Shown here: positions 7,914 to 59,186 of the stretch, in pieces | Position numbering within the stretch: the stretch's first letter is position 1 | How the letters are laid out: the number at the start of each line of letters is the position of its first letter | NCBI GenBank assembly: GCA_949294665.1 | Contig: CASFID010000017.1 | Coordinates: 28,471 to 92,470, forward strand | From: an uncultured Eubacteriales bacterium | Lineage (GTDB): Bacteria; Bacillota; Clostridia; Lachnospirales; Lachnospiraceae | Direction of reading: 5' to 3' | Length of the DNA stretch: 64,000 nucleotides | Notes under the pieces: model-generated | Databases searched by the model: none | Told to the model about the DNA's origin: nothing | What the model saw: the letters and a program-made list of their open reading frames with translations, nothing else | Translations under genes and position numbers: made by a program

Positions 7914-8528
7914 ATGGAAAGACGAAATGAAACACTCATAAAGATCGCACAGACAGCGCTGCTGGCAGCTCTGTGTTTTGTATCATTTACATTTTTGCAG
8001 ATCAAAATACCGATGCCGGGCGGCGGAGCCACATCGTTCCATGTGGGCAATGCATTCTGCGTGCTGGCTGCTCTCATACTGGGAGGATGGTACGGAGGTC
8101 TTGCCGGAGCGATCGGTATGGGCCTTGCCGACGTCCTGGATCCGGTCTATATTACCGGAGCGCCCAAGACGTTTGTGCTCAAGCTGTGTATCGGACTGAT
8201 CGTGGGACTTGTGGCGCACCGGATCGCGAAGATTAATGAGAGTCAGGACAAGAAATATGTGTTCCGCTGGAGCGTGATCGCGTCTGTGGCGGGACTTGGA
8301 TTCAATGTGGTGGCAGATCCTCTGGCAGGGTTTTTCTATGATCAGTATATACTCGGCCAGCCGCAGCAGATGGCGGAACTGCTTGCCAAATGGAGTACGG
8401 CGACGACATTTGTGAACGCGGCTATATCGGTGGTCCTGGCGGGAGTCCTGTATAATGCGCTCAGACCGGTTCTTATGAAGACGGGGATGATCCATCCGGT
8501 AAAGGCGAAAAAATTACAAAGTTTTTAA
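7914..8528 (+). CDS. ECF transporter S-component, substrate unknown
   Basis: An integral membrane substrate-binding (S) component of an energy-coupling-factor vitamin transporter, about 204 residues with five to six hydrophobic helices. The N-terminal AALCFVSFTFLQIKIPMPGGGATSFHVGNAF region and the GGWYGGLAGAIGMGLADVLDP motif are typical of the S-component fold that docks on EcfT. ATG 7914 was chosen over an in-frame TTG at 7866 because GGGAAAGAGG lies just upstream. No EcfA or EcfT gene is nearby, so it should share the cell's common module. A small 6-bp hairpin (7881-7897) sits before the ribosome site, but I do not recognise a riboswitch. Confidence 0.85.
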   Translation: MERRNETLIKIAQTALLAALCFVSFTFLQIKIPMPGGGATSFHVGNAFCVLAALILGGWYGGLAGAIGMGLADVLDPVYITGAPKTFVLKLCIGLIVGLVAHRIAKINESQDKKYVFRWSVIASVAGLGFNVVADPLAGFFYDQYILGQPQQMAELLAKWSTATTFVNAAISVVLAGVLYNALRPVLMKTGMIHPVKAKKLQSF

Positions 8529-8576
8529 TGATTTTTCTCTCATTCAATGGTATTATTATTGCAGTACCGTAATAGG

Positions 8577-8582
8577 TATAAT
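8577..8582 (+). promoter_or_regulatory. Candidate -10 element before the zinc-ribbon protein gene
   Basis: A consensus TATAAT hexamer lies 27 bases before the start codon at 8609. The -35 region is poor, so this is a weak call. Confidence 0.35.
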
Positions 8583-8608
8583 ACGATTATGAGAGTGAGG
8601 TATGACAA

Positions 8609-9166
8609 ATGAATTGCGTGAATTGCTATCAGGAAATTCCAGATGGATCAAAATTCTGTCCGCACTGTGGAGCACAGCAGCCGGAGACAACAGGGACGGA
8701 TCCTGTGAATACACAGCCGGATACGGCAGGACAGCCGGGAGCAGAGGCACAGACAGGAACAACAGAGACGTCCTCACAGCCTGGTGCTCAGACTGTGGGA
8801 GCACAGTATCAGAATCAGTATCAGAGTGATCCGTATCAGAACGGACAGTATCAGAATGCTTCTTATCAGACTCCTCCGGTATATCAGTCGACTTATGAGC
8901 CGGCGCCGCAGGTTAACTGGGTTCCTTATCTGGTACTTTCTATTATCTCTACGGTATGTTGTTGTGTACCGTTTGGTATCGTTGCGATCGTCTATGCCGC
9001 GAAGATCAACAGTTCCGTATCGGCAGGAAATATCGAAGAGGCGCAGAGAGCGGCCAAGACTTCAAAGATATGGATCATCGCTGCATTTGCATCAGGTTTC
9101 ATCGTGCTGGTGCTCTACCTCCTGTTCTTTCTGGTGATCGGAGATACCGGGTATTATTATTACTAA
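8609..9166 (+). CDS. Zinc-ribbon and CD225/dispanin-type membrane protein
   Basis: A protein of 185 residues. Residues 1-25 form a short zinc ribbon with two CxxC knuckles (CVNC and CPHC). Residues 30-100 are a low-complexity Q/S/T/P/Y linker with repeated YQN and YQS units. The C-terminus carries two membrane helices and the CD225/dispanin signature (NWVPYLVLSIISTVCCCVPFG, then AAKINSSVSAGNIEEAQRAAKTSKIW). Proteins of this pattern are common in Clostridia; their function is unknown. The DUF2752 gene follows 25 bases later and is probably co-transcribed. Confidence 0.85.
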   Translation: MNCVNCYQEIPDGSKFCPHCGAQQPETTGTDPVNTQPDTAGQPGAEAQTGTTETSSQPGAQTVGAQYQNQYQSDPYQNGQYQNASYQTPPVYQSTYEPAPQVNWVPYLVLSIISTVCCCVPFGIVAIVYAAKINSSVSAGNIEEAQRAAKTSKIWIIAAFASGFIVLVLYLLFFLVIGDTGYYYY

Positions 9167-9191
9167 GATAGAGAGGAACTGAGACGTTACT

Positions 9192-9650
9192 ATGCTTATG
9201 GGATTAGCAGAGAAGTTCCGAAACAGCATAAAAGCGCGTATCGCCCTTGTACTTTGTGCAGGGGCGATTGCCGCTGCGGGAGCGCTGTATCTGTATTTTC
9301 ACAACCCGTATTCTTATCCTCTGCCGTGTATCTTTTATTCACTGACAGGGCTGTACTGTCCGGGATGCGGTGCGGGGAGAGCATGCTATTCGCTGCTGCA
9401 TCTCAGATTTGCAGATGCATTCAGCTACAATCCGCTTATGGCGGTCCTTCTGCCGCTTATCGGACTTTACATCGTCGCCCGGGCGCTGGACTGGATGCTC
9501 ACAGGCGGTAATCATGTCGACAGCAAGATCAGTGTAAAGCTGCTTGTGTGGATACTGGTGATAGTGCTTCTATATGGTGTCCTCAGAAATATACCGGTAT
9601 ATCCGTTTACACTGCTTGCCCCGGGAGGACTCCGGCAGCTGCTCGGCTGA
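9192..9650 (+). CDS. DUF2752 membrane protein
   Basis: A 152-residue membrane protein with about three to four hydrophobic helices. The family signature is GLYCPGCGAGRACYSLLHLRF around residues 51-71, with two cysteines in CPGCG. DUF2752 proteins are often encoded beside zinc-ribbon/CD225 proteins, as here. Function is unknown. Confidence 0.85.
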   Translation: MLMGLAEKFRNSIKARIALVLCAGAIAAAGALYLYFHNPYSYPLPCIFYSLTGLYCPGCGAGRACYSLLHLRFADAFSYNPLMAVLLPLIGLYIVARALDWMLTGGNHVDSKISVKLLVWILVIVLLYGVLRNIPVYPFTLLAPGGLRQLLG

Positions 9651-53187: not shown

Positions 53188-53190
53188 CAC

Positions 53191-53211
53191 TGGAGTATAC
53201 GGGATTCGAAC
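53191..53211 (-). other. tRNA 3'-end fragment, candidate attachment site of an integrative element
   Basis: Read on the minus strand, this is a T-loop plus acceptor arm: GTTCGAATCC, then CGT, ATACTCC and the discriminator A. The remaining tRNA body is absent to the right, where the sequence becomes A+T-rich. Tyrosine-integrase elements leave exactly such a 3' fragment at one junction and the full tRNA at the other. The full gene would therefore lie beyond the right edge of the window, also on the minus strand. Confidence 0.7.
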
Positions 53212-53552: not shown

Positions 53553-54194
53553 ATGAAAAACGAAAGAGCAATTAATTTTATTTTGAATGCTATGGCTATA
53601 ATAGGTTTTTTGTGTTCATTAGTAGATAGAATACCAGAGTTAATTAGCAAAATTTTATTTATATTAGCTTGGCTTTGCCTTTTAATTTTAATTTATGCAA
53701 ATTGGAATAGGCGCACAGTTAGTAGAAAAAAGATGATTAAAGAAGGAAATAACATTTTACAAAATGTTGAGTCCAAAGCAGTTCTTTTTGGTGGAGATTT
53801 GAGTTGGTGTGATGATTATTGGGAAACGCTAAAAAAACTTTTGGATGACAATAAAATTGTGGAGGTATACTTCCCATCGACTAAGTTTTATAATGCACCA
53901 AATAGCTTCGCAGAAGAGAAGTTAATTAATCGTATTGATAAATTAGCACGTATAGGAGTAAACATATATACGATAGATAATGATTATCGTATGAGATGTA
54001 TAATAACAGATCCTGAAGGCATTGGAAATCATGAAAAAACGAAAGTATTATTAGCTGATAGAAGAAAAATAAAAAGAAATAAAGAAAAAAGTAGGTATAA
54101 AATAGAGCATGTTACATATAAAGAAAACCAAGAGGTCTGTAAAATGATTATTACGGTTTATAATCTTATTAAAGTGGATGCAACGCTTTTTTAA
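53553..54194 (+). CDS. Two-TM protein with a PLD-like soluble domain lacking HKD
   Basis: A 213-residue protein I do not recognise by name. Two membrane helices lie at about 6-24 and 31-52 with a short turn between, then a basic stretch. The soluble domain (about 65-213) begins AVLFGGDLSW and continues VEVYFPSTKF, LARIGVNIYTIDNDYRMRCIITD. That pattern resembles one half of a phospholipase-D-like fold, but the HxK motif is missing. It is A+T-rich with codon use unlike the host genes, so probably acquired. It is followed 20 bases later by a P-loop kinase-like gene, probably in the same operon. A membrane effector role is possible but unproven. Confidence 0.6.
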   Translation: MKNERAINFILNAMAIIGFLCSLVDRIPELISKILFILAWLCLLILIYANWNRRTVSRKKMIKEGNNILQNVESKAVLFGGDLSWCDDYWETLKKLLDDNKIVEVYFPSTKFYNAPNSFAEEKLINRIDKLARIGVNIYTIDNDYRMRCIITDPEGIGNHEKTKVLLADRRKIKRNKEKSRYKIEHVTYKENQEVCKMIITVYNLIKVDATLF

Positions 54195-54214
54195 AGTAAG
54201 AAGAGGTGTTTGGT

Positions 54215-54904
54215 ATGAGTTCAAGGGTTGAGAATAAGCAATTAGTTGATGAATTGTATGATAGAATTACACGGCAACAAGCTATAGCAACTACATTTAT
54301 TGTTGAAATTAGTGGTACACCTAATTCTGGTAAAACCACATCCGTTTTAAAATTTGAAAACATATTCAATAGAAAAAAGATGGGGTTTAAATTTATTCAT
54401 GAGATGGCAACAAAATGCCCAATTAATGATAAATTACTTCCAGAATTTAATTATTGGACTGGAACGAGTACTATGACAAAATTTTGGGAATTATTGTATA
54501 AAAAACCCACAGTCATTATATGCGAAAGAGGAATTTTTGACGCCTTGTGTTGGTTAGAATTTCATTATAAGAGAAAAAGTATTAGTGAATTTCAGTTAAA
54601 AAAAATGGCTGATTTTTATTTGAATGATAGTTTAACAAAGTATAAAAAATATGTTTTAGAATTAGTTTGTTCGCCAAAATGTGCCGTTGACAGAGAGTAT
54701 ATGATTAATGATTATCATATCCCAGGTACTATCGTTAATAAAGAAATAGTTCAACAGATTAATCAATCAATAAAAACGTCTTCGGACAAATATAATGATT
54801 ATTTTGATAGAATCGAAACTGTTGATAGTACAAATATGGATATGGAGTCAACTGTCACAACAGTTTTTAATAAAATTTTACGTTATTTACTTGACAATAT
54901 TTAA
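54215..54904 (+). CDS. P-loop NTPase, nucleoside/nucleotide kinase-like
   Basis: A 229-residue protein. Walker A is GTPNSGKT (34-41). A second motif, IICERGIFDALCWLEFHYKR (101-120), resembles the ERG/DRS-x-D element of deoxynucleoside and thymidylate kinases. The rest is helical, with lid-like basic residues near CAVDREYM. ATG 54215 follows GAGGTG. It is A+T-rich like the gene before it and probably co-transcribed. A nucleotide-modifying or sensing role is inferred; an unrelated AAA-like function is possible. Confidence 0.65.
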   Translation: MSSRVENKQLVDELYDRITRQQAIATTFIVEISGTPNSGKTTSVLKFENIFNRKKMGFKFIHEMATKCPINDKLLPEFNYWTGTSTMTKFWELLYKKPTVIICERGIFDALCWLEFHYKRKSISEFQLKKMADFYLNDSLTKYKKYVLELVCSPKCAVDREYMINDYHIPGTIVNKEIVQQINQSIKTSSDKYNDYFDRIETVDSTNMDMESTVTTVFNKILRYLLDNI

Positions 54905-55005
54905 AATATAGTTATTTTCCCTCTAGTTCAGGAGAAGGATATTGAATTAAATAGCATCGAAAGGGTAAGAAAAAATAGGGGTTGAAATTTGAGCAAACCT
55001 CATAA

Positions 55006-55080
55006 TGATCCTTAGCTCAGTTGGTAAAGCATTCGGCTGTTAACCAACCGAAGTGCCGTTGGCTCAAGTCTGTGAAGTTT
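55006..55080 (+). pseudogene. Degenerate tRNA-Asn-like sequence
   Basis: TTAGCTCAGTTGGTAAAGC forms a normal D-arm. It is followed by TTCGG, CTGTTAACCAA and CCGAA, an anticodon arm with GTT but an 11-base instead of 7-base loop. A GTTGG/CTCAAGT T-arm start then fails to close, because CTGTG stands where CCAAC is expected. The last bases do not pair with the first seven (TGATCCT). It looks like a tRNA-Asn gene with an insertion in the anticodon loop and a replaced 3' end. Confidence 0.65.
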
Positions 55081-55183
55081 TATTTCTCCAAATTAAGTAA
55101 CAGTTCAAGGAAATATATATCTATGGGATACATGAACTTGTACTAATCTTCCGATCAGAAAAAACTCTATATAGAATTATAAG

Positions 55184-55211
55184 ACGCTTGTATAGATTTG
55201 CAGGCGTTTTT
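55184..55211 (+). terminator. Terminator-like hairpin downstream of the tRNA relic
   Basis: ACGCTTG (55184-55190) pairs with CAGGCGT (55201-55207) with one G-U, then TTTT. Confidence 0.5.
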
Positions 55212-55263
55212 GATATAGAATTGAATAGTATGGAAATAGAATTAATGGATTTTAAAATGTCAA

Positions 55264-55292
55264 TTGTTTATCCGTATAGATTATATTATACT
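55264..55292 (+). promoter_or_regulatory. Promoter of the GHKL/nuclease gene
   Basis: TTGTTT (55264-55269), a 17-base spacer and TATACT (55287-55292), 36 bases before the ATG. Confidence 0.65.
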
Positions 55293-55328
55293 TAGTACAG
55301 TACCATAAATGAGCAAGAAGGTGAAAAA

Positions 55329-57341
55329 ATGAAAAGTGTTCTTATTACACCCGAAGGAATACAAAAAAATTTAAAAAATATAAAACCCTTGGATGCTATA
55401 TGCGAATATATTTGGAATGGTTTTGATGCAGAGGCTACTGAGATTAAAATTACTTTACATGAAAATGGTCTTGGAATCATTAATATGATCACAGTAGAAG
55501 ATAATGGAATAGGAATAGATTATGACGAATTAAAATATAAATTCCAGCCATTTAATGATTCAAAAAAGGCAGATTTATCGGCTAAGACGAATCATTCTTT
55601 GCCACATGGACGCAAAGGAATCGGCAGACTTACATTTTTTGCTTTTGCCCAAAATGCTCGTTGGGAAACTATATATGAAAAAGGCGGTAAGCGATATAAA
55701 TATTTTATTGCGATGAATAAGGATTCATTAAACCAATATGATGATAATGGAGAAAAACCACCAGAACAAGTTTATGATATAGGTACGGGAACTAAGGTGA
55801 TTTTTACCCAATTGGAATCCTTAGACAAGAAGGAGATTATAACAAGAATTAAAGAAGAATTTTTTTGGTTTTTGGAATTAAATGAAGAAAATGGATTCTC
55901 TATTATTGTTGATAATGACCGTATTGACTATGCAGATTATATTATAAAAAAGGAAAATATCGCTCCTCCCGTTGAATGTAAGCAGGAGTATGAAATTCGC
56001 TTTGTACAATGGAAAGTAAAATTAGGAAATGAATATTCAAGAATATATTATATAGGTTCAGATAACAATGAGAAATACAAGGAAACAACGAAATTAAATA
56101 AACAGGCTGATCATTTTTTCCATAGCGTGTTTATAAAAAGCAGTTATTTTGATAAGTTTTGTTTTAAGCAGAGTGAAATTGAAGGACAAGGAAATTTCTT
56201 CCCTGATAAGTCAGATGATGAATATAAATTAGTAATGAGAGGAATTAATGATTTCTTGCTTAAATACAGAAGAGAATATTTAAAAACTGCCTCTGACAAA
56301 TATATTGCACAGTTAGTAGATGAAAATGTTTATCCTGAATTTGATACTGCTAGTGTGATTGGAGCGTATCAAAAGAAAGAATTGGACAATCTTGTTGGAA
56401 CTTTGTATGCAGCACAACCTAAAATTTTTACAAATTTGAATGTGGACAATAAAAAAATTACATTACAGCTTTTAAAGTTGATAATGGATAATGGAAATAA
56501 ATATGAATTGTTTAATATATTACAAAATATTGTGGATTTAGATGAAGATGAGATGAAAGAACTGTCGGATATTTTGCAATATACCACGCTGAATAATATT
56601 ACACGAACTATTAAATTTTTATGTGACAGACAGAAAGTAATTCAGGCATTAAAGGAGGTTGTTTATACAAAGCCTTTTGATGCGTATGAGGTTGCTCACG
56701 TCCAAAAATTAGTAGAAAATCACTACTGGATTTTCGGCGAGCAATATAATTTAATTTCATCAGCAGAGCCGGATTTTGAGCTGGCATTGAAAGGATTAAT
56801 TTTAAAAACAGCAGGTGTGGAAGAAGATGTTGATATAGATCATATAGATAAAAATAAAGAAATGGATTTATATATGATCCGTCAAGATAGGCAAGGAAAA
56901 GTTACAGAAAATGTTGTTGTTGAATTAAAGCGCCCCAAAATACCATTAGGAGAAAAGCATATTTCACAAATCAAAAGATATATGCGTGTGATTAAGTCTG
57001 ACACAAGATTTAATGCGGGCAATGTAAAGTGGACATTTTATTTAGTTGGAAATAAATTTGATTCAACTGGTTATATCGAGGATGAAATAGAAAGCCATAT
57101 GAACTATGGAGAACAACATCTTATTCATTGTCAAGATAAAGGATTAACAAAAATATACGCTTTTAAATGGAGCGAAATTTTTGAAGATTATTCAAGGCGG
57201 CACGACTTTTTAATGGAGCGATTAAAGTTAGAAGAAAAACTTTGGCTTGAAACACATAGTTCAGCAGACGATGCGGTCAATTCTGTCATAGATAATAGTG
57301 CGATAATGCCAGAGCCTGTAATTCCTAAAAGGCAGAATTAA
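55329..57341 (+). CDS. GHKL ATPase with C-terminal PD-(D/E)XK-like domain, candidate defence protein
   Basis: A protein of 670 residues. Residues 1-200 are a MORC/Hsp90-like GHKL ATPase: N box CEYIWNGFDA (Asn30), G1 EDNGIGI (58-62) and G2 GRKGIG (94-99). The middle is mixed helical and unfamiliar. At about 471-560 there is a nuclease-like pattern: Glu in FGEQY, Asp513 in KEMDLYMI, and Glu532-Leu-Lys534 in VVVELKRP, followed by HISQIKRYM. This is the order of a PD-(D/E)XK core and recalls Shedu (DUF4263)-type domains. It is A+T-rich, has its own promoter and terminator, and sits as single-gene cargo beside mobile-element genes. ATP-gated DNA cleavage against phage or plasmids is the leading inference. 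Confidence 0.75.
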   Translation: MKSVLITPEGIQKNLKNIKPLDAICEYIWNGFDAEATEIKITLHENGLGIINMITVEDNGIGIDYDELKYKFQPFNDSKKADLSAKTNHSLPHGRKGIGRLTFFAFAQNARWETIYEKGGKRYKYFIAMNKDSLNQYDDNGEKPPEQVYDIGTGTKVIFTQLESLDKKEIITRIKEEFFWFLELNEENGFSIIVDNDRIDYADYIIKKENIAPPVECKQEYEIRFVQWKVKLGNEYSRIYYIGSDNNEKYKETTKLNKQADHFFHSVFIKSSYFDKFCFKQSEIEGQGNFFPDKSDDEYKLVMRGINDFLLKYRREYLKTASDKYIAQLVDENVYPEFDTASVIGAYQKKELDNLVGTLYAAQPKIFTNLNVDNKKITLQLLKLIMDNGNKYELFNILQNIVDLDEDEMKELSDILQYTTLNNITRTIKFLCDRQKVIQALKEVVYTKPFDAYEVAHVQKLVENHYWIFGEQYNLISSAEPDFELALKGLILKTAGVEEDVDIDHIDKNKEMDLYMIRQDRQGKVTENVVVELKRPKIPLGEKHISQIKRYMRVIKSDTRFNAGNVKWTFYLVGNKFDSTGYIEDEIESHMNYGEQHLIHCQDKGLTKIYAFKWSEIFEDYSRRHDFLMERLKLEEKLWLETHSSADDAVNSVIDNSAIMPEPVIPKRQN

Positions 57342-57366
57342 AATTGATTAGATAAATCATACATAG

Positions 57367-57405
57367 CCGATTGATTTTCATATGAGAGTCAATCGGTTTT
57401 TACTT
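57367..57405 (+). terminator. Terminator of the GHKL gene
   Basis: CCGATTGA (57367-57374) pairs with TCAATCGG (57389-57396), followed by TTTTTACTTTT. Confidence 0.8.
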
Positions 57406-57472: not shown

Positions 57473-58297
57473 ATGCAGAAATGCAAGGTGATTGCGATTG
57501 CCAATCAGAAAGGGGGAACAGGAAAGACCACAACAACAGTGAACTTAGGCATTGGACTTGCCAATGAAGGGAAGAGAGTCCTTCTTGTGGACTGTGATCC
57601 GCAGTCCGATCTTACAACATCTTTAGGATGGCAGGGAGAAGACATTTCGGTTACATTGTCTGTACTTATGGAGCAGATGATACGTGATGAACCGGTAGAT
57701 GTGCATAAGGCAATTTTACATCATGCAGAGGGAGTCGATTTGATTCCTTCAAACATTGAGTTGTCTGGCATGGAAGTTATGTTGGTGAATACTATGAGTT
57801 GGGAGTTTACACTAAAATCCTGTCTGTCAGAGGTGCAGAAAGACTATGACTATATCCTGATAGACTGTATGCCGAGTTTAGGTATGCTGACAATCAATGC
57901 TCTTGCAGCGGCAGACAGTGTGATTGTTCCGGTACAGGCTCATTATCTCCCGCTCAAGGGAATGACGCAGTTAGTAAAAACCATCCGAAAAGTACAAAGA
58001 CAGATCAATCCACAGCTAAAAGTGGACGGCGTGGTCCTGACACTGGCTGACATGAGGACGAATCTGGCAAAAACGACTGCAGAGTGCCTGAAAGAAAACT
58101 ACGGGAAAATGCTGAAGATTTATGACACGATTATTCCCGTAGGAATTAAAGCGGCAGAGACCAGTACGGCGGGGAAGAGTATTTATGCGTATGACAGAAG
58201 AAGTACCATTGCGAAAGCATATCAGGAGTTTACGCGGGAGGTGATACAGAGTGACGAAAAGAAACGCCATAGAGATGAACCTGCCCACAACAGATGA
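57473..58297 (+). CDS. parA: ParA/Soj-family partition ATPase
   Basis: A 274-residue deviant Walker ATPase that, with ParB, positions or stabilises a replicon or integrated element. The deviant Walker A is KGGTGKTTTTVN, with DCDPQSDLTTSLG and DYILIDCMPSLGMLT following. Base composition is closer to the host than in the preceding A+T-rich genes, which suggests that the element backbone begins here. It overlaps parB by 47 bases. AAAGGAGG lies before the ATG. Confidence 0.93.
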   Translation: MQKCKVIAIANQKGGTGKTTTTVNLGIGLANEGKRVLLVDCDPQSDLTTSLGWQGEDISVTLSVLMEQMIRDEPVDVHKAILHHAEGVDLIPSNIELSGMEVMLVNTMSWEFTLKSCLSEVQKDYDYILIDCMPSLGMLTINALAAADSVIVPVQAHYLPLKGMTQLVKTIRKVQRQINPQLKVDGVVLTLADMRTNLAKTTAECLKENYGKMLKIYDTIIPVGIKAAETSTAGKSIYAYDRRSTIAKAYQEFTREVIQSDEKKRHRDEPAHNR

Positions 58298-59186
58298 TCT
58301 GTTCAGTACGCAGGAAGAAAGAGATAATGAGAAACGAGAGTATGTAAAAGCAATTCCACTAGATCAGATCAGCGATTTTCCGAATCATCCGTTTAAGGTA
58401 CGGATGGATGAAAAGATGATGGAAATGATCGAGAGTGTGCGGGAATACGGCGTTCTAGCTCCGGCAGTCGTCAGACCAAAAGAGGGCGGCACCTATGAGA
58501 TGATTGCCGGACACCGCAGAAAACTGGCAAGCCAAATGGCAGATCGCTCAGAGATGCCTTGTATTGTACGGAATCTGACAGATGAAGAGGCAACAATTAT
58601 CATGGTTGACCCCAATCTTCAGCGTAAAGAGATATTGCCGTCTGAGAAAGCCTTTGCTTATAAGATGAAACTGGATGCAATGAAAAGACAGGCAGGGCGA
58701 CCTAGCAAAAATTTGTCGCCACTGGCGACAGATTTAATCGGCAAGCGATTAGATGAGATTTTAGGAGCGCAAGTAGGTGAAAGTAAAGATCAGATTCGCA
58801 GATATATCCGACTTACGGAACTTATCAAGCCAATCCTTGACATGGTGGATGATAAACAGATTGCTTTACGGCCTGCTGTGGAGTTGTCTTATCTCTCTCA
58901 GGACCAACAGGAGATGCTGTTGGATACCATGCAGTTACAGGATTGCACACCGAGCCATGCGCAGGCAATTAAATTGCGTAAGTTTGCAGAAGAGGGCAGA
59001 CTGAATGAAGATGTGATTTTATCAATCATGTCGGAAGAAAAAGGAAACCAAAAAGAACAGTTCCGTATACCAAGAGAACGTATCAGTAAATATTTTTCTC
59101 CGGGGGCGTCTGCCAAGCAGATCGAAGATACGATTATCAAAGCATTGGAACTGTACCGGAAAAGGGAGCGGAGCAGGGAACGTTAA
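58251..59186 (+). CDS. parB: ParB/Spo0J-family partition protein
   Basis: A 311-residue ParB-type protein. The N-terminal ParB/Srx domain contains PNHPFKVRMDEKMMEMIESVREYGVLAPAVVR and MIAGHRRKLASQM (split reading of the motif order). A helix-turn-helix follows at about 175-195. The start is GTG 58251, fixed by GGGAGGTGAT inside parA. With ParA it forms the maintenance pair of the element. No parS site was identified by eye. Confidence 0.92.
   Translation: MTKRNAIEMNLPTTDDLFSTQEERDNEKREYVKAIPLDQISDFPNHPFKVRMDEKMMEMIESVREYGVLAPAVVRPKEGGTYEMIAGHRRKLASQMADRSEMPCIVRNLTDEEATIIMVDPNLQRKEILPSEKAFAYKMKLDAMKRQAGRPSKNLSPLATDLIGKRLDEILGAQVGESKDQIRRYIRLTELIKPILDMVDDKQIALRPAVELSYLSQDQQEMLLDTMQLQDCTPSHAQAIKLRKFAEEGRLNEDVILSIMSEEKGNQKEQFRIPRERISKYFSPGASAKQIEDTIIKALELYRKRERSRER

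Follow-up and report, generated by a model that had tools for sequence, protein, structure and literature searches.

A probable anti-phage ATPase–nuclease of the paraMORC3 type, carried as cargo in a variable slot of an integrative element from a Lachnospiraceae bacterium

Introduction

The paraMORC3 proteins were named by Iyer, Abhiman and Aravind in 2008, and are described in the text cited as combining a GHKL ATPase and an S5 domain with a C-terminal restriction-fold domain that carries an E-D-ExK motif; a subset of them stand alone, and their sporadic distribution was taken by the authors as lateral mobility (PMC2292703). A 2025 study reported VcSduA, the product of a single gene in which GHKL and PD-(D/E)XK domains are joined in one protein, and its authors assigned it to Shedu type I-D, with DUF4263 (PMC12137116). 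VcSduA protects E. coli against T1-like phages and its own host against X29 (PMC12137116; also PMC12409362), and the substitutions E27A and K557A each abolish its protection in E. coli (PMC12137116). Protection was robust at every multiplicity tested, which the authors interpret as a sign that the phage is targeted directly and the host preserved, and homologues were present in about 1.2% of genomes (PMC12137116). The same report puts forward the hypothesis that the nuclease is under the control of the GHKL domain, and gives a tetramer model of VcSduA as not well supported (PMC12137116); for EcSduA, an N-terminal domain that senses DNA ends and a tetramer are reported (PMC12904381).

Here we describe a gene on a 64,000-nucleotide stretch of DNA from an uncultured Eubacteriales bacterium (the window) that a first-pass annotation had put forward as a candidate single-gene defence system of an architecture it could not put a name to. 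That architecture does have a name, since it is the paraMORC3 of 2008 (PMC2292703), and VcSduA of 2025 is built alike (PMC12137116); the window gene adds a member to an architecture already known, and it places an ATPase–nuclease built like VcSduA in a Clostridia-type bacterium, where an integrative element carries it. We consider it very probable that the gene encodes a single-gene, DNA-cutting anti-phage protein, in which an ATP clamp—a ring closing around DNA—is joined to a PD-(D/E)XK nuclease.

Results

The gene and its predicted protein

The open reading frame at 55329–57341 (+) encodes 670 amino acids and is a GHKL ATPase–nuclease gene of the paraMORC3 type, as judged by the reading frame, Pfam and residue conservation; its start, stop and strand are those first given. 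The GHKL ATP-binding domain occupies residues 19–135 (55383–55733, +) and includes E26, N30, DNGIG at 58–62 and GRKGIG at 94–99, an assignment made from the sequence, Pfam, conservation and a structural model. Pfam HATPase_c_3 matches residues 22–135 (E 5e-19), and the intact ATP site that had been claimed is upheld. An S5-like transducer domain lies at about residues 146–276 (55764–56156, +; limits by eye), placed by the secondary structure of the model and by matches to TRAP1, MutL and MORC that are longer than the GHKL domain, and the model gives a helical middle region at about residues 297–446 (56217–56666, +). The predicted PD-(D/E)XK nuclease domain, at about residues 447–640 (56667–57248, +), contains E454, D513, E532-x-K534 and Q547xxxY551 and is placed by Pfam, conservation, the model and a profile match; the last of these motifs resembles the QxxxY motif of RecB/Cas4-type nucleases. 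Pfam HSDR_N_2, the N-terminus of type I restriction R-proteins, falls just below its cut-off of 25 bits at residues 498–557 (24.2 bits, E 3.7e-5), and it was seen in all nine members of our first alignment when matches with E up to 10 were admitted. Motifs, Pfam and conservation agree on the fusion of the two domains in a single gene, as first proposed, and judging from its residues the window protein has both sites, ATPase and nuclease, intact.

The gene is A+T-rich, as had been noted, with a G+C content of 0.28–0.32 in 1-kb steps over 54001–57000 against about 0.45–0.53 across most of the window. The promoter attributed to it earlier was not recovered: none stands out, the 27 promoter-like sites comparing with 23.9 (sd 5.2) in shuffles. 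The attributed terminator is there as a structure—a terminator-like hairpin with a 15-pair stem at 57365–57398 (+), between the gene and parA, found by a hairpin scan that gave four such hairpins in the region compared with 1.7 (sd 1.6) for shuffled sequence, and with copies in related elements. Since it also adjoins parA in elements that lack the gene, it may belong to the element and its ownership by the gene is doubtful. In a related genome (G029) the hairpin (L187:815–856) precedes the cargo, near the junction, and that of the window (57360–57401) stands between the gene and parA.

Structure predictions

The full-length protein was modelled as a monomer with AlphaFold2 from an alignment of 129 rows reduced to 100 at under 85% identity, giving a mean pLDDT of 91.3 and a pTM of 0.71. 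Compared with the PDB by Foldseek, this model matches TRAP1 (2e-12), MutL (1.8e-11) and MORC4 (6e-11), and the MutL, TRAP1 and MORC matches span more than 300 columns, and so take in the S5 domain too, with TM-scores by query length that are low (about 0.26). The C-terminal 224 residues modelled alone, from 93 of these rows, gave a pLDDT of 91.4 and a pTM of 0.88; the first 11 PDB matches are to EcoO109I (the best, E 0.027), Can2, MspJI, McrBC and Bse634I, which share the PD-(D/E)XK fold. Though consistent, these matches are individually weak, none reaching E 0.001 and TM-scores by query length being about 0.2–0.36, and the lower matches are a mixture of restriction nucleases, CRISPR-associated nucleases and unrelated folds. 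The profile of the domain found two matches only among PDB sequences (E 0.81 and 1.1). Such a structural comparison had been suggested with the first-pass annotation, and its restriction-enzyme-like part came out in the leading matches; no Shedu structure appears among the 50 fold matches listed, although the PDB contains Shedu structures. The models make a C-terminal PD-(D/E)XK fold likely, short of proof.

Relatives and conservation of residues

Relatives were found in at least 581 bacterial and archaeal genome stretches (the best 80 being retained), in 65 viral contigs, in 45 plasmid records (32 of them covering at least 80%) and in two phage records, both from Pasteurella. The plasmid relatives are about 40% identical in Deinococcus and Paenibacillus and about 22–28% identical in the others listed, and the nearest relatives among the best 80 of the at least 581 genome matches come from Lachnospiraceae. 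Within the phylum the family is rare, with matches of E 1e-30 or better in five of 299 genomes, its own included. Twenty-two of 61 related genomes, again counting its own, show a match; only G029 has, besides the window gene itself, a near-identical copy, which is cut by a contig end and is identical to the window protein over the 99 residues present. Most other matches in these genomes are short, N-terminal and at about E 1e-4, and we take them for MutL. A DNA search with a relative of 76% identity found a single plasmid record, which covered 6% of the query. In a tree made by a quick method from 100 rows, 41 of them without an assigned group, phylum changes 12 times (minimum possible 9, shuffled mean 25.8), so that rows of one phylum largely group together and the tree gives little support for transfer between phyla.

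Conservation was scored on 138 complete proteins of at least 600 amino acids, which remained from 159 matching loci after removal of the gene of the window itself and of 20 others that were short, broken or incomplete; the set includes near-copies and two weak relatives (L004 and L005). In the ATPase domain N30, D33, D58, G60, G62, G94, G97 and G99 are invariant in all 138 and E26 is kept in 137, figures that are partly built in, since the search patterns spanned residues 26–34 and, for viral contigs, also 93–100. The nuclease residues lie outside these patterns and were therefore free to vary; D513, E532, K534, Q547 and Y551 are nonetheless present in every one of the 138, and E454 in 136. 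The nuclease pattern read from the sequence at the outset thus stands, and the glutamate then left without a position is most likely E454.

A shorter form without the nuclease occurs in four genomes of Pedobacter and in one bin of Sphingobacteriales (L091, L094, L096, L097 and L103, at about 7992–9263). These proteins, of 417–423 amino acids, are 38–39% identical to the window protein over residues 3–416 and end before the nuclease; the genes downstream look conserved and ordinary, and by eye no nuclease reading frame is seen nearby. Other Pedobacter loci (L080, L083 and L090) carry the full-length form. The nuclease-free form is possibly a domesticated ATPase, and its occurrence at five loci indicates that the ATPase half can have another role.

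Relationship to Shedu

The Pfam signature of Shedu, SduA_C (DUF4263), gives no match in the window protein or in the nine members of the first alignment with E up to 10; in a whole-genome search it was not found at the window gene, and relatives in the 30 genomes searched all lie below its cut-off. One relative, from Parabacteroides (L173, which is the gene of L059), scores 16.8 bits (E 0.02), under the cut-off. Canonical Shedu membership was considered and rejected for the window protein, which does not reach the SduA_C cut-off.

Two short GHKL proteins come closer to the signature: one of 584 amino acids (L264:181–1935) passes it with 28.1 bits against the cut-off of 27, and one of 597 amino acids (L171:142–1935) just misses it at 24.4 bits. 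They were aligned with three plasmid relatives of the former (L266–L268), the last two rows being cut at the start of the match and a Rhizobium relative (L265), whose match falls in two pieces, being left out. By hhalign, with E-values that are those of single comparisons, the window-family profile matches this alignment end to end (probability 99.9, E 7.3e-34, 537 columns), and the same alignment matches nine Shedu proteins (probability 92, E 5.4e-7). The direct match of the window nuclease domain to Shedu is weak (probability 59, E 9.1e-5, also for a single comparison), with the ExK and Q region in register. Because the intermediate profile matches on both sides, we regard the window nuclease as probably related to Shedu through intermediate GHKL proteins: the likeness to Shedu suggested in the first-pass annotation holds as probable kinship and fails as signature. 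Having missed the Pfam signature, the window protein is filed as a paraMORC3 protein that would work like VcSduA. As the nine first-alignment members and the relatives in 30 genomes all lie below the signature, surveys based on it may undercount a family that extends to the 581 or more genome stretches and 65 viral contigs given above.

Residues E27 and K557 of VcSduA are probably the counterparts of E26 and K534 here. The spacing between this Glu and Lys is 497–538 in the window family (median 507.5, with two of 138 rows at 525–535) and 476–479 in five short GHKL proteins. In the published numbering VcSduA has a spacing of 530, which is inside the window-family range, in its upper tail, and outside that of the short proteins; this comparison of residue spacing suggests, and does no more than suggest, that VcSduA belongs to the window family.

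The integrative element and its cargo slot

The probable left junction of the integrative element is marked by a fragment of the 3′ end of tRNA-Ala at 53190–53211 (−). A second copy of this 22-mer, the only other one in the genome, is part of an intact tRNA-Ala(CGC) on a different contig; that tRNA is flanked on one side by an integrase-like gene (named by eye) and on the other by tRNA-Val and a tmRNA gene, and the two contig ends would be those of one element. The integrase-like gene at the probable other end (L217:329–1410) consists of two overlapping frames and may be broken. Stretches around relatives of the flanking EAL-domain gene were examined in five related genomes for an uninterrupted site: in one (G031) tRNA-Ala(CGC) and the tmRNA gene lie about 1.6 kb from the EAL-domain relative, and in the other four no tRNA is found beside it. 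On the far side of the gene are parA (57473–58297, +) and parB (58251–59186, +), both identified by Pfam, and the gene thus lies next to parA and to a probable integration junction, as had been described.

Two further cargo genes precede it. One (53553–54194, +) encodes 213 amino acids with a hydrophobic N-terminus by eye and no family; the other (54206–54904, +; possible ATG start at 54221) encodes a P-loop NTPase of 232 amino acids, with AAA_28 below cut-off at 7e-4. Neither has a plasmid match, and at E 1e-8 neither finds a match in 149 further genomes of the family; together (53553–54904) they perhaps form a second, unknown system.

The region from the left end to parA varies among related elements. 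In G010 and G030, whose parA genes are 95% and 93% identical, parA lies less than 300 bases from tRNA-Glu with no cargo between; in G025 and G027 (parA 72% and 68% identical) the same slot is filled by other genes; and in G029 tRNA-Glu is followed by an intact tRNA-Asn and then the start of the same gene. In a genome bin of Roseburia (L024) the 76% relative is succeeded by one reading frame and then by a stretch 70% identical to the start of the parA region. From these empty, refilled and occupied slots we conclude that the gene is cargo of a variable slot. Near two related elements (L211:3830–10418 and L212:9185–12882) there are reading frames with a resemblance to a Wadjet-like system of the SMC type and to a CRISPR region.

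A decayed tRNA-Asn-like stretch lies ahead of the gene at 55009–55071 (+), where ARAGORN makes no call; it was compared by eye with the intact tRNA-Asn(GTT) of G029 (L187:587–660), which is about 0.3 kb upstream of the gene there. The same tRNA lies 0.4 kb upstream in L025 (421–493) and 3.9 kb upstream in L027 (245–316), and is absent upstream in eight other near relatives scanned. This tRNA could be a relic of an integration site or be linked to the system.

The decay of this stretch, together with the lack of any promoter that stands out, would suit a gene that is an inactive passenger, intact yet unexpressed or without function in this genome, and such a state is compatible with a defence function of the family at large. 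The open frame, the retention of every invariant residue and the identity of the G029 copy over the 99 residues present speak against it, and we rate the chance that the gene is such a passenger as very slim. We take the window copy to be active and expressed.

Neighbourhoods of relatives elsewhere

Several relatives adjoin defence-related genes. That of Psychrobacter is next to the antiviral reverse transcriptase Drt2 and a methyltransferase/LlaMI pair, that of Phaeobacter is next to a type ISP restriction-modification gene, and that of Deinococcus adjoins a ParA gene and lies near a DNA methyltransferase; the Pasteurella phage relatives sit among tail genes. Annotation shows no equally clear defence system beside the gene in Mesorhizobium, Streptomyces, Salmonella or Paenibacillus, the Paenibacillus neighbourhood having HEPN and TIGR02391 genes within 6 kb. 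By eye, the 11 annotated neighbourhoods (two of E. coli being alike and one, from Paenibacillus, sparsely annotated) show a standalone gene without a conserved neighbourhood. A 98% copy of the Salmonella relative is present in 11 of 5426 E. coli genomes. Two of these loci were viewed, and each is a P4-like satellite in which the copy is flanked by psu and the integrase, the interval between these two being described as an anti-phage hotspot of such satellites that holds varied defence genes (PMC9122126).

Neighbouring reading frames were also compared with PADLOC models at 1e-10. The neighbour set, made up of 132 of 224 reading frames from 61 loci, gave matches to 521 models, those listed including type I restriction genes, GajA and PtuA; the control set, made up of 140 of 256 reading frames from the 30 existing stretches among 40 fixed positions in 22 relative-carrying genomes, gave matches to 66, with mad3 in five reading frames, mad8 in three, AriA in three and the others listed in one each. 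These counts are of models, inflated by redundancy, and not of proteins, and the sets were chosen by different rules, so that the size of the enrichment is rough. The search for homologues and their neighbours proposed earlier favours the defence setting then supposed, with a variable slot here and relatives on plasmids, in phages and in P4-like satellites.

Methyltransferase or restriction-modification genes near the Deinococcus, Psychrobacter and Phaeobacter relatives would also suit a restriction-modification system of the BbrUII/HgiDII kind, of which the window protein would be the nuclease half, dependent on a methyltransferase and cutting unmethylated sites. Residues 24–203 match NCBIfam BbrUII/HgiDII (NF050001) with E 5e-19, and the same N-terminal region matches PADLOC REase_II with E 6.6e-9. 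The NCBIfam match scores 68 bits where the cut-off is 550, and aligns the ATPase part alone, and on this ground membership in BbrUII/HgiDII was rejected. No methyltransferase family occurs among the genes from the left junction to parA, and none is annotated in the viewed stretches of two Pasteurella phages and two E. coli satellites. We find a restriction-modification role quite improbable.

The par genes beside the window gene, and the ParA gene beside the Deinococcus relative, raise a different thought, that the protein maintains or recombines mobile elements, by MutL-like processing of strands or exclusion of plasmids, and is not an anti-phage defence. The ATPase is related to MutL, and nuclease-free relatives exist, which would fit. 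Against this, the G010 and G030 elements lack the gene in the slot, with only a short match of E 1e-4 elsewhere, in G030; relatives are found in phages as well and at the satellite position where varied defence genes are described (PMC9122126), and VcSduA protects against phages (PMC12137116). A maintenance function seems to us hardly probable. Carriage as mobile cargo, taken with the plasmid, phage and satellite-hotspot settings, leaves a defence role well supported.

Discussion

If the window gene encodes a DNA-cutting anti-phage protein, as we think very probable, its action can be pictured as follows. Two copies would bind ATP through their N-terminal GHKL domains and then close in the manner of MutL, MORC and Hsp90, the closed dimer forming a ring of the S5 domains and helical middle regions around DNA. 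Closure might be triggered by a feature of incoming phage DNA, such as an end, a crossing or an unusual topology, and would release the C-terminal PD-(D/E)XK domain, in which D513, E532 and K534 with a metal ion would cut the phage DNA. The phage challenge of ATPase and nuclease mutants suggested with the first-pass annotation has its equivalent in the E27A and K557A experiments on a different protein, VcSduA (PMC12137116).

More speculatively, the window family and the short GHKL proteins with SduA_C could form a single lineage with clamps of the MutL/MORC type joined to Shedu nucleases, in which case most ATP-driven Shedu-like proteins would escape the present signature. The form of the DNA—its ends, crossings or topology—would then be sensed by ATP-driven closure of a ring and not by a fixed clamp that binds ends, and Pedobacter would have lost the nuclease and kept the clamp as a chromosomal gene. 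We offer this as a tentative proposal and think it rather less than even in its chances.

Among known systems, paraMORC3 shares with the window protein the intact GHKL ATP motifs, the S5 domain and the C-terminal restriction-fold E-D-ExK (PMC2292703), the last represented here by E454, D513 and E532-x-K534. It was described, in the text cited, as prevalent in proteobacteria and Bacteroidetes (PMC2292703), whereas the window copy lies on an integrative element and has its nearest relatives in Lachnospiraceae. The BbrUII/HgiDII type II restriction enzymes have the GHKL N-terminus in common with the window protein, the match being confined to residues 24–203. Canonical Shedu SduA (PDB 8ti8, found with L169) has a weak profile match to the nuclease domain of the window protein, and no GHKL family was found in the two canonical proteins scanned, whereas the window protein has one. 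The short GHKL proteins, of about 580–600 amino acids, match the window family in profile from end to end and differ in having a shorter middle. VcSduA, with GHKL and PD-(D/E)XK domains in one protein as here, was assigned DUF4263 by its authors (PMC12137116), whereas the window protein does not reach Pfam SduA_C.
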